A DNA stretch of 64,000 nucleotides from assembly GCF_029338515.1 (NCBI RefSeq), contig NZ_CP119988.1:4402001-4466000 (forward strand). Reading direction: 5' to 3'. Each line of letters starts with the position of its first letter. Positions within the stretch are counted from its first letter, which is position 1. Source of the stretch: Haloglomus litoreum. Lineage in GTDB: Archaea; Halobacteriota; Halobacteria; Halobacteriales; Haloarculaceae. Positions 11,360-63,929 of this stretch are shown here, piece after piece. The notes below the pieces were generated by a model. That model was not told the DNA's origin. It ran no database searches and saw only the letters and a program-made list of their open reading frames with translations. Made by a program: the position numbers and the translations under genes.

Positions 11360-11929
11360 ATGGCCGAGGACACCGACGCCGCGGACGACCACGAGCGCCG
11401 TCTCGTCGAGGGGTGGCAGGGCCGCTTCTACGAGGACTTCCAGGTCGGCGATGTCTACAAGCACCCGTACGGGCGGACCGTGACCGAGACGGACAACGTC
11501 TGGTTCACCAACCTGACGATGAACGTCAACCCGATGCACTTCAACGAGGCGTACGCCGCCGAGACGGAGTTCGGCGAGCGCCTCGTGAACGGGACCTACG
11601 TCTTCTCGCTCGCGGTCGGGATGAGCGTCATCGACGTGAGCGCCAATGCGACCGCGAACCTCGGGTACGACAACGTTCGCCACCACGCGCCGGTCTACCA
11701 CGGCGACACCATCTTCGCCGAGAGCGAGGTGCTGTCGAAACGGGAACTCGACTCGCGCGAGCACTCCGGCATCGTCACCACCGAGTTGCGGGCGTTCAAC
11801 CAGGACGACGAACTGGTGCTGTCGCTCGAACGGACGCCGATGGTGCTCAAACGCGCGTTCGCGGAGCCGAGCGCGGCGGCACCGACGGGGTGGCCCGACG
11901 GTATCGGCTTCCAGCCCGGAGACGAGTAG
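11360..11929 (+). CDS. MaoC family dehydratase
   Basis: A 189-residue single hot-dog-fold MaoC protein. It has the early YEDFQVGDVYKHPYGRTVTETDN segment, and NPMHFNEAYA matches the hydratase-2 motif, with the catalytic Asp position replaced by Asn (N-x-x-x-H-x-N). Relatives hydrate or dehydrate acyl-CoA substrates; in haloarchaea similar proteins include mesaconyl-CoA/beta-methylmalyl-CoA hydratases, usually longer. The exact substrate is open. A GGTTAG box at 11331-11336 is placed for a leaderless ATG at 11360. It is followed by a gene-free stretch full of inverted repeats. Confidence 0.85.
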   Translation: MAEDTDAADDHERRLVEGWQGRFYEDFQVGDVYKHPYGRTVTETDNVWFTNLTMNVNPMHFNEAYAAETEFGERLVNGTYVFSLAVGMSVIDVSANATANLGYDNVRHHAPVYHGDTIFAESEVLSKRELDSREHSGIVTTELRAFNQDDELVLSLERTPMVLKRAFAEPSAAAPTGWPDGIGFQPGDE

Positions 11930-11976
11930 CACACACCCCGATTTCGACTGCGGAGTGCCCGCCCGACGAACCGACT

Positions 11977-12148
11977 CGGGTGGGACTGAAAGGGGCCGCC
12001 GTCTCGACGAACCCGGACGACGCAAGCACCGCAGCGAACGAAGTGAGCGAGGAGCGTGGTTCGAGAGAGCGACGCTCTCTCGTTATCCCGAAAATCTCCG
12101 ATTTTCGGAGATAGCGAGGCCCGGGAGTCGAGACGGCGGGGGCTTTCT
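11977..12148 (+). repeat. Hairpin repeat copy A
   Basis: Conserved left end CGGGTGGGACTGAAAGG, then arm GGGCCGCCGTCTCGAC (to 12008). The complementary arm is at 12127-12148, ending GGGGGCTTTCT. The arms pair over GAAAG/CTTTC and a 13-bp stem, separated by a G-rich internal loop present in other copies. The interior holds the family core GCAAGCACCGCAG (12022-12034) and two further perfect hairpins, at 12062-12082 (10-bp arms) and 12088-12108 (8-bp arms). Confidence 0.8.
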
Positions 12149-12187
12149 ACCCGTTCTGGTCGGTCGCTATCGGGGTCGGACAGTTGT

Positions 12188-12311
12188 CGAAAGCCCCCGG
12201 GCGCTCGGGGGTCCGCGGCTCGCTGCGGTCCTCGTCCTCACTACGTTCGGCCTGCGGTCCTTACTTCGCCGGGGACCCGCCGACCGCCCGGCCCCTTTCA
12301 GTCCCACCCGG
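12188..12311 (-). repeat. Hairpin repeat copy B, inverted relative to copy A
   Basis: Read on the minus strand it begins CCGGGTGGGACTGAAAGG, carries arm CGGGCGGTCGG, a core starting GTAAGGACCGCAG, the inner GACCGCAGCGAGCCGCGG block, and the closing arm ending GGGGGCTTTCG. The two arms pair with one mismatch. With copy A it makes a tail-to-tail pair, so both outer ends of the intergenic region read GACTGAAAGGGGCC outward-in. It shares long stretches with the copy at 45.6 kb. Confidence 0.8.
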
Positions 12312-12416
12312 ACAGAACGTGTCACCGAGTGCACCCACGAGTCGGCACGGTGTGGACGAACCACCAGCGGCGTCGAGTGGCGGGATTGATACGCACGCCG
12401 GCACTACGTCCCGGTA

Positions 12417-13520
12417 ATGGAGTACGTCCAGGAGCGGGTGACGACGCTCCACGACTTCACGGACCCCGTCCCCGACGCGCCCGTCGACGAGGCCGCGGTG
12501 GTCGTGCCGATGACGGAACGCGAACACGCGAGTCTGGCGGCCGAGCGCGTCATGACGGCGCTGGAGGACGTGGCGCCCGACCGGGTCGTCATCGCCCTTC
12601 GTGCGGAGGCGGAGCGTGTCCCGGCGGTGCGGGACTGGCTGGACTCGTTCGACCTCACCGTCGAGACGCTCTGGTGCGACGGCCCCCGACTGCAGGAGCT
12701 GCTGGCGAGCGAGGGGCTGAACGGGCGGCGCGGGAAGGGCCGTGACGTGTGGCTGGCGCTGGGCCGGGCCGCCGAGTCCGACCTCGTGGCGGTCCACGAC
12801 GCCGACGCCTCCACCTACAGCCGGGCGCACGTCCCGCGACTGCTGTTCCCGCTCGCCCACGGCTTCCGGTTCTCGAAGGGGTACTACGCCCGCGTGGAGA
12901 ACCGGCGGCTGTACGGCCGGCTGTTCCGGCTGTTCTACGCGCCGCTCGTCCGGGCGCTTGAGGACGCCCACGACGCCGCCATCCTCGACTACCTCGGCGC
13001 GTTCCGGTACGCGCTGGCGGGCGAGTTCGCCGCAACGAGCGACGTGATTCGCTCGCTCCACGTCCAGCGCGGCTGGGGCCTCGAAGTGGGAACGCTCGGC
13101 GACGCGTTCCACGCCGCCGGCCTCGACGGGAGCGCGCAGGTCGACCTCGGCCTGCACGAGCACGACCACCGCGCGGTGTCAGGGCCGGCAGGGCTGTCGA
13201 CGATGGCCGACGAGGTGGGTGCGGCACTGCTGCGGGCAGTCGAGGGCGGCGGCGTGGCGCCAGACTACGGGACGCTGCCCGCGCGCTACCGCGACGCCGC
13301 GGACGCGCTCGTGGACGCCTACGCCACCGACGCCGCGTTCAACGGGCTGGAGTTCGACCGCGCGGGCGAGCGCGAGCAGGTCGAGTCGTACGCCGACAGC
13401 ATCACCCCGCCCGGCGAGGACACCCGGCTGCCACCCTGGAACGAGGCACCGGTGACGGCCGACGAGGTGCGCGAGGCCGTCCGGGCCGACATCGACGCCG
13501 CCGCGGAGGAGCACGCATGA
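12417..13520 (+). CDS. GT81-type glycosyltransferase, glucosyl-3-phosphoglycerate synthase-like
   Basis: A 367-residue cytoplasmic family-2-like (GT-A) glycosyltransferase that best matches glucosyl- or mannosyl-3-phosphoglycerate synthases. Visible parts are VVVPMTEREHASL at the start of the nucleotide-sugar domain, GKGRDVWLALGRAAESDLVAVHDADAS with the DxD-type metal site (about residue 124), and a GYYARV acceptor loop. The known pathway makes glucosylglycerate or mannosylglycerate, compatible solutes, or primes polysaccharides. The role here is an inference. It overlaps the next gene by four bases (ATGA), so the two are probably co-translated. Confidence 0.82.
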   Translation: MEYVQERVTTLHDFTDPVPDAPVDEAAVVVPMTEREHASLAAERVMTALEDVAPDRVVIALRAEAERVPAVRDWLDSFDLTVETLWCDGPRLQELLASEGLNGRRGKGRDVWLALGRAAESDLVAVHDADASTYSRAHVPRLLFPLAHGFRFSKGYYARVENRRLYGRLFRLFYAPLVRALEDAHDAAILDYLGAFRYALAGEFAATSDVIRSLHVQRGWGLEVGTLGDAFHAAGLDGSAQVDLGLHEHDHRAVSGPAGLSTMADEVGAALLRAVEGGGVAPDYGTLPARYRDAADALVDAYATDAAFNGLEFDRAGEREQVESYADSITPPGEDTRLPPWNEAPVTADEVREAVRADIDAAAEEHA

Positions 13521-45519: not shown

Positions 45520-45798
45520 GCGACGGGAACAGGTTGGAAGCCCCTGGCCGCCCGATATTGCCTGTTCCACAGAGCGCACACACCGAGCCAGCACGATACG
45601 GACGCGACCTCGGGAAGCCGAACCGGGCGGGACTGAAAGGGGCCGGGCGCTCGGCGGGCCCCCGGCGAAGTAAGCACCACAGCGTATGCCCGGAACGGCG
45701 GGTGAGCGCCAGCGAACCCGCCGCAGGCCCGGACCGCGAGGAGCGCAGCGAGCCGCGGGCCCCCGAGCGCCCGGGGGCTTTCAACAGGTTCCCGTCGC
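45520..45798. repeat. Outer inverted pair enclosing hairpin repeat at 45.6 kb
   Basis: The 28-mers at 45520-45547 and 45771-45798 are inverted copies (24 of 28 match). Farther out, 45479-45493 and 45828-45842 are also inverted (13 of 15). The whole 364-bp block looks like a nested inverted structure, with the 45.6-kb hairpin repeat forming the right part of its interior. Confidence 0.6.
45623..45783 (+). repeat. Hairpin repeat copy at 45.6 kb
   Basis: Starts CCGGGCGGGACTGAAAGG, arm GGGCCGGGCGCTCGG (to 45654), core GTAAGCACCACAG (45671-45683), inner GAGGAGCGCAGCGAGCCGCG block, and closing arm CCGAGCGCCCGGGGGCTTTCA (45763-45783). The arms pair over GAAAG and a 12-bp stem. The arm sequence equals that of copy B but differs from copy A. 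Confidence 0.8.
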
Positions 45799-63302: not shown

Positions 63303-63427
63303 CGACGACGGAAGCACCTACGAAGCCCTCGCGCTCTCGTACCGCCGCGACTCGCTGCGCTCCTCGCTCCCTCCGGTCGCTGCGGTGCTTACGTCGTCGG
63401 GGCGGTGACGAGAGCGCTCGCCCTTCG
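63303..63427 (-). repeat. Hairpin repeat copy C
   Basis: On the minus strand it opens with arm CGAAGGGCGAGCGCTCTCG (63409-63427), carries the core GTAAGCACCGCAG and the GAGGAGCGCAGCGA block, and closes with an arm that is the complement of 63321-63339. The arms pair over CGAAG and a 9-bp GCGCTCTCG stem. The flank to 63303 is also matched in copy D. Confidence 0.75.
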
Positions 63428-63596
63428 AGTCCGCCAGGAACATAGAACGGTCCACGGGCGTGTAGCCCTGCCCTTCCCCGGGTTGCGCGGCCTCGCTAGC
63501 GCTCGGCACGCGCGGCCCGGCCGGAGAGCGGTTGGTCGGCCGGTCGGTTCCGAGTCAGGAAGCGCGCCAGCGCCACCACGTCGAACCGCGAGCAGG

Positions 63597-63635: not shown

Positions 63636-63804
63636 GACGAAGCGAGCGTGTTCGGCGGTCACCGGCGCTGGCGCGGGGAGGTGTAGGGGAACCAGCCCTC
63701 CGCTGGAACCACCACACGCGTCGCTCGACGCGAAACGCAACCCCCTGGCGGAATCGAAGGTGAGCCGAACGGAGTGAGGCGAACGCCGCCAGAGCTTGCT
63801 CTGC

Positions 63805-63929
63805 CGGAAGGCGAGCGCTCTCGACCCAGCCCGGAGGAAGCAAGCACCGCAGGGAGCAACGCGACCGAGGAGCGCAGCGACTCCCGGATGGTCGAGAGTG
63901 CGAGGGCTTCGGAGGTGGTTCCGTCGTCA
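63805..63929 (+). repeat. Hairpin repeat copy D, inverted relative to copy C
   Basis: Left arm CGGAAGGCGAGCGCTCTCG (63805-63823), core GCAAGCACCGCAG (63840-63852), the GAGGAGCGCAGCGA block, right arm CGAGAGTGCGAGGGCTTCGG (63893-63912), and an outer flank shared with copy C. Copies C and D could pair with each other over more than 100 bp as well as within themselves. Confidence 0.75.

Follow-up and report, generated by a model that had tools for sequence, protein, structure and literature searches.

The intergenic region 11930-12416 (487 bases) of the Haloglomus litoreum window (i.e., the whole stretch of 64,000 nucleotides that was analysed), flanked by two ORFs oriented in the same direction (11360-11929 and 12417-13520), contains two hairpin repeats, A and B, facing each other with their tails. 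Which kind of element do they represent, and why do their arms remain complementary in spite of a different sequence? A and B belong to a haloarchaeal interspersed hairpin repeat with about 100 copies in this genome; the reading preferred here, although tentatively, is that this repeat might well be a DNA-level single-strand element resembling the REP/BIME of bacteria.

The general layout of each copy is GACT-GAAAG-GGG-[arm]-core-tip-core'-[arm']-GGG-CTTTC, where the two GGG runs lie opposite each other and form an unpaired internal loop, the stem is GC-rich and variable, the core is conserved and the tip is variable. The features of the window are reported below; R1 is a covariance model built from 63 aligned copies.

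11977-11998: left arm of the outer inverted repeat closing the A/B pair, CGGGTGGGACTGAAAGGGGCCG (22 nt)
11984-12147, plus strand: hairpin copy A, 164 nt (R1 match, 83.2 bits)
11996-12008, plus strand: 5' arm of copy A
12057-12112 (approximate limits, about 56 nt), plus strand: nested insert of copy A, a double mini-hairpin missing from B
12127-12139, plus strand: 3' arm of copy A, after which come GGG (12140-12142) and the foot CTTTC (12143-12147)
12148-12188: spacer separating the CTTTC foot of A from that of B, in which their tails are joined
12189-12303, minus strand: hairpin copy B, 115 nt (R1 match, 88.7 bits)
12289-12310: right arm of the outer inverted repeat (22 nt), 100% complementary to 11977-11998
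45631-45782, plus strand: third copy (R1 match)
63321-63431, minus strand: fourth copy, forming the left half of a pair arranged head-to-head
63803-63910, plus strand: fifth copy, right half of the same pair (gap of 372)

Copy A exhibits the foot GAAAG/CTTTC, the GGG/GGG loop, a perfectly paired 13-bp arm (CCGCCGTCTCGAC/GTCGAGACGGCGG) and a core interrupted by the nested insert; its inverted arms were retrieved at 11988-12008 and 12127-12147. The plan of copy B is the same, and its arms (CCGGGCGGTCGG/CCGAGCGCCCGG), unlike those of A, pair with one G.G mismatch. Both the inverted-repeat arms and the R1 matches confirm what an earlier note on this DNA had proposed, i.e., that A and B are copies of one hairpin plan whose arms differ, the partner being changed to match; R1 also finds in the window exactly the five copies counted there. 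The statement that the two copies fill nearly all of the intergenic region was instead too generous, as they occupy, ends included, about 335 of the 487 bases. Folded as single-stranded DNA and compared with shuffled sequences, A and B gave z values of -5.72 and -2.12, respectively; the fold of B alone is modest evidence, and the case therefore rests on the comparison among copies.

The insert of copy A consists of the mini-hairpins TTCGAGAGAGC..GCTCTCTCG and CGAAAATC..GATTTTCG. A related nested double mini-hairpin of about 55 nt, with arms that vary and still pair, is located inside other hairpins (loci L002, L006, L020, L037, and L188), and one of the same type can be seen at the end of a Halovenus IS200/IS605 tnpB (L166:4003-4058).

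The motif GACTGAAAGGGG occurs three times in the window with no more than one mismatch (0.12 expected), and has 49 exact matches in the 4.695-Mb genome (0 for the reversed control). At a threshold of E <= 0.01 (the E-values of R1 being rough by design), 102 hairpins embedded in 69 loci were disclosed in the genome of H. litoreum. Most of the basic copies are 99-121 nt long, within an overall hairpin length of about 93-240 nt; the foot is either GACTGAAAG or GAATGGAAG, and the mean column identity across genomes is 70%. In three loci (L004, L013, and L041), the copies are collapsed, with only the feet being left. No match to Rfam was obtained for the window at gathering scores, nor for the region together with eight related loci when hits up to E 5 and E 1 were admitted, and no account of the hairpin family was found in open-licence papers, which is weak evidence of its novelty.

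The comparison among copies (alignment A1, 63 copies) revealed that the 30 proposed base pairs are paired in 95.5% of cases vs. 75.3 ± 0.6% after shuffling, even though these pairs were chosen on the same alignment that scored them, which favours the structure somewhat. Changes on both sides were detected at 23 of the 30 pairs, many of them being swaps from G-C to C-G, and the double-change cells were 327 vs. 94 expected. The covariation score was 0.491 (0.137 for shuffled alignments), and it dropped to 0.046-0.073 when the partners were slid by one to three columns. Covariation extends to the foot (A-T to G-C) and to the core (C-G to G-C and C-G to T-A); thus, it is more than an arm effect. 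The GGG/GGG loop is kept in 144 of 151 hairpins. The existing sequences strongly support the idea that evolution keeps the hairpin fold, leaving its letters free to change. The earlier note had described the kept loop and, on the basis of compensatory change, proposed a conserved fold; the outcome that it named as refuting this, i.e., arms with non-compensatory mutations and a number of copies expected by chance, did not occur, as the genome has 102 copies with paired arms.

A second question concerns which molecule folds. A set of 209 hairpins, extracted by a rule making no distinction between G.T and A.C, contained 35 distinct mismatch contexts with G.T and 14 with A.C (p = 0.004, a value overstating independence, since the copies are related by descent). 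The 120 distinct tips, from hairpins sampled unevenly across species, comprise 60 of the C(GNA)G type and just three of its complement, C(TNC)G; any base can occupy the middle of GNA (A 25, G 15, C 14, and T 6). A cruciform in double-stranded DNA folds both strands and would give no such strand bias; hence, the bias argues against the cruciform that had been suggested as one of the possible folds, and means, as far as sequences can indicate, that the fold of a single strand is the conserved one. Loops of the C(GNA)G type are known to be very stable when made of DNA, as in the d(GCGAAGC) mini-hairpins. Such stability, the scarcity of RNA-type tips (one GNRA and no UNCG), and a proportion of G.T of about 2% of the arm pairs favour single-stranded DNA over RNA, without amounting to proof. 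The excess of G.T could partly reflect transcription-linked mutation, because 30 of 44 hairpins are located sense-wise downstream of a gene.

Concerning the organization of the copies, 33 of the 69 loci are pairs, 30 of which are head-to-head, two tail-to-tail (A/B being one of them), and one tandem; the tail-to-tail order described in the earlier note is therefore correct for A and B and not typical of the genome. Many spacers of the H. litoreum pairs cluster near 83, 276-282, and 309-335 nt, and in other genera the head-to-head spacer is mostly 27-39 nt long, starting with CCACCC and ending with GGGTGG. The outer tails of the pairs are complementary more frequently than after random re-pairing (0.53 vs. 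0.39, with none of 2000 shuffles as high); as an example, GAACAGCAA...TTGCTGTTC. From these sequences, the full unit can be drawn as four arms, namely a tail stem, a hairpin, a central stem, and a second hairpin. In the A/B pair the central sequence lies outside and the tails inside, an order resembling a circular permutation of the head-to-head unit.

Other modules accompany the hairpins. Many composites of this genome (L001-L043) have, upstream of GACTGAAAGGGG, a longer centre with an extra hairpin, GGAAGCGCGC[arm]..[arm']GCGCGGGGAGGTGTGGGG, in which, by eye, the arms again change in concert; among the loci retrieved from other genomes, L133 and L138 are the only ones where it is clear. L003, L023, L025, and L029 harbor another second centre module (..CCTCCCCAGCCGCCTGC..GCGCGCTTAGAGGTGGC..) that has GC-rich inverted repeats of its own. 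In L007, L008, L016, and L035, the last arm and the tail (about 30-70 nt) are tandemly repeated after the CTTTC foot, and in L016 the other end is tandemly duplicated too. An autonomous version with a gene between the hairpins was sought in the widely spaced pair L065, which contains short ORFs that by eye are not transposase-like.

According to a crude gene caller based on acidic ORFs, 44 of 46 hairpins are intergenic, and only three of 44 lie between divergent genes, the downstream, same-strand position being the prevalent one (p = 0.02, on the same crude gene calls). Their density along the chromosome is uneven (chi-square p about 1e-6), being high at 0.5-1.0 Mb and almost null at about 1.5-2.5 Mb, with no hairpin at all between 2.0 and 2.5 Mb.

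The chief rival explanation is a structured RNA, according to which the hairpin is transcribed mostly by read-through and works as a small RNA or as a 3'-UTR hairpin for stability, processing, or termination. The strong covariation and the one-strand bias fit a structured RNA as well, and so does the position of 30 of the 44 copies downstream of a same-strand gene; moreover, Haloferax possesses hairpins upstream of 503 termination sites, and one hairpin that was tested terminated transcription (PMC7237163). However, with 30 of 33 pairs being head-to-head, any transcript spanning a pair has one copy antisense, and the CTTTC foot is not followed by a T-stretch. Together with the low G.T(U) content, the near absence of GNRA or UNCG tips, and the lack of an Rfam match, this makes a structured RNA an unlikely explanation, albeit the main one competing with a single-stranded DNA hairpin.

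A different kind of evidence comes from sister species. The A/B pair is located at the same site and in the same order in both of the better-assembled congeners, where its arms have been largely rewritten and are still complementary; in one of them, the GGG loop of copy A has turned into a perfect CCC/GGG pairing. Larger composites behave differently between congeners: L019 is 757 nt long in H. litoreum and 43 nt in both congeners, L016 and L023 correspond to a single or half hairpin in place of the composite, and that of L003 is absent. The comparison shows, at the sequence level, that sites persist between species, with the hairpins located there being rewritten, lost, or replaced by larger composites. 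The earlier note proposed to look for empty sites in relatives; sites lacking the composite exist (L019 and L003), the A/B site being occupied in both congeners. Since the intergenic flanks have diverged, neither an exact insertion boundary nor a target-site duplication was readable between congeners.

The wholesale rewriting of arms at the same site would also be expected if mutation alone, through template switching between arms and gene conversion, kept the palindromes without any selected function, and the CCC/GGG replacement (as expected from arm-to-arm correction) and the many G-C to C-G swaps point in the same direction. Nevertheless, this process predicts the closure of the loop, yet GGG/GGG is almost always maintained, and it predicts no strand bias, yet the C(GNA)G tips outnumber their complement 60:3; besides, the core has unpaired positions that are conserved throughout the class. 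An origin by mutation alone is, on these grounds, quite improbable.

Less probable still is that the hairpins act as a double-stranded site, or as a cruciform, for a protein of the chromosome, such as gyrase or a protein that binds the nucleoid or junctions. Such a site would account for the dyad symmetry of the head-to-head units and their recurring spacers, and several host proteins do bind bacterial BIMEs (PMC2817692), but mismatches and tips are strand-biased, and a free arm sequence would be intolerable to a protein reading the duplex.

The hairpins are widespread in the class. R1 matches were retrieved in 165 of 194 sampled Halobacteria genomes, belonging to 58 of 66 genera, with 19 candidates scored per genome, so that copy counts per genome are "at least" values. 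Together with the 102 copies of H. litoreum, this is the outcome of a covariance-model search of the kind that the earlier note had suggested. Of 148 genomes sampled across the phylum, 20 were matched, all of them within the order of H. litoreum, and the exact motif was found in none of the viral contigs. A Y1 transposase was considered as a possible helper and rejected: of the same 194 genomes, 132 carry Y1 genes, neither the occurrence of hairpins nor their number depends on these genes (Fisher p 0.67; Mann-Whitney p 0.74), and Y1 is missing altogether from 21 genomes that contain ten or more hairpins. The idea of a non-autonomous element, also put forward in the earlier note, is supported in part, by the different presence of large composites between congeners, and receives no link to a Y1 transposase. 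The only Y1_Tnp of H. litoreum is an ordinary IS200/IS605 tnpA located beside tnpB, and a survey of Y1 proteins lists the IS200 subclass as the only one in Archaea (PMC6006769). This single element exhibits, beside its end palindromes, GAAAGCCC and GGAAGCCC, which resemble the two foot types of the hairpins.

A derivation from IS200/IS605 ends (either a PATE or a PATE that received an SMR-A, mobilised in trans by TnpA) is the least probable explanation of all and can be set aside, since, although size, subterminal palindromes, and tails are like those of the Haloquadratum PATEs and of the ~110-bp SMR-A (PMC3119063) and the local element is suggestive, the foot motif GRAAGCCC occurs in none of the 20 other haloarchaeal IS200/IS605 left ends and the hairpins are independent of Y1.

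Haloarchaeal plasmids contain a noncoding block of about 450 nt, often 80-90% identical, that adjoins the start of an OB-fold "DNA-binding protein" gene (L170:3537-4145, L165, L168, L169, L171 of pNRC100, L172, L173, and L174). It matches 167 plasmid records, many with a hairpin at the block end, and has no match in Rfam; an origin, a transfer site, and a large RNA are among the things that it may represent. Homology between this block and the centre of the chromosomal composites was discarded, as a profile search gave no match to the plasmid loci.

Among known repeat systems, the closest likeness is with REP/BIME/REPIN, i.e., high-copy intergenic palindromes with free arms, organized in opposite-orientation pairs with spacers, one strand of which is thought to be the active fold; the 102 largely intergenic and mainly head-to-head copies share this organization. 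However, REPs are 20-65 nt long, shorter than the Haloglomus hairpins, which also differ in having a conserved internal loop and core, a foot without the GTAG/GGAG-type (GT[AG]G) tetranucleotide, and no TnpA-REP (RAYT) gene in the H. litoreum genome. Because two of the REP hallmarks are missing, the family was not filed as REP. Integron attC sites are also single-strand hairpins with a free arm sequence, a conserved shape, and one active strand; the resemblance does not extend to the feet and the core, which look unlike the attC boxes. A structured RNA family agrees with the covariation supporting the fold on one strand, whereas no curated covariance model of Rfam matches.

Like the Haloglomus hairpins, SMR-A of Haloquadratum walsbyi is a haloarchaeal repeat of about 110 bp with inverted ends, no transposase, tens of copies, and an unexplained mobilisation (PMC3119063). 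SMRs of one type are commonly more than 95% identical and insert in PATE/IS605 palindromes without a duplication (PMC3119063); the hairpin copies are instead not homogeneous, as shown by their mean column identity and by arms differing even between A and B. Identity with SMR-A was rejected, since a candidate SMR-A from sampled Haloquadratum DNA has other ends, with feet not common to both; the Haloquadratum genome gave a single weak R1 match. The larger composites recall PATEs in their near-terminal palindromes, tails of 20-50 nt, and lack of transposase, but PATEs have IS605-like palindromes and no terminal inverted repeats, whereas the hairpin ends are inverted; the IS605 link fails as well, GRAAGCCC being present in the H. 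litoreum element and missing from the other left ends. As for MITEs, complementary tails and sites lacking the composite were observed, and the search for a transposon sharing these ends gave none.

If A and B belong to a single-stranded DNA element, the GACTGAAAGGGG strand would fold when the site becomes single-stranded, e.g., on the lagging-strand template, and, with one hairpin per strand in each unit, one of them would form whichever way the fork passes. A putative structure-specific protein might then act on the hairpin (foot, GGG/GGG loop, and core), and its action would allow copies to be made, converted by one another, and turned over. A circular form of the four-armed unit is suggested by the permuted A/B pair; speculatively, such an intermediate would leave the tails joined on the inner side and the central repeat on the outer one. 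A more specific proposal, possible and yet rather doubtful on present sequences, is that in Halobacteria the four-armed unit is copied and homogenised as single-stranded DNA by a non-Y1 enzyme via a circular form or, if transcribed, represents a new class-wide RNA family.

The R1 model makes the copies easy to annotate, and the sister species supply sites where a hairpin is present or absent, or rewritten at the same locus, so that the single-stranded DNA and the RNA explanations can be tested directly. A hairpin whose shape is conserved in most Halobacteria, on one strand and with its letters rewritten in coordination, would be an archaeal counterpart of REP/BIME.
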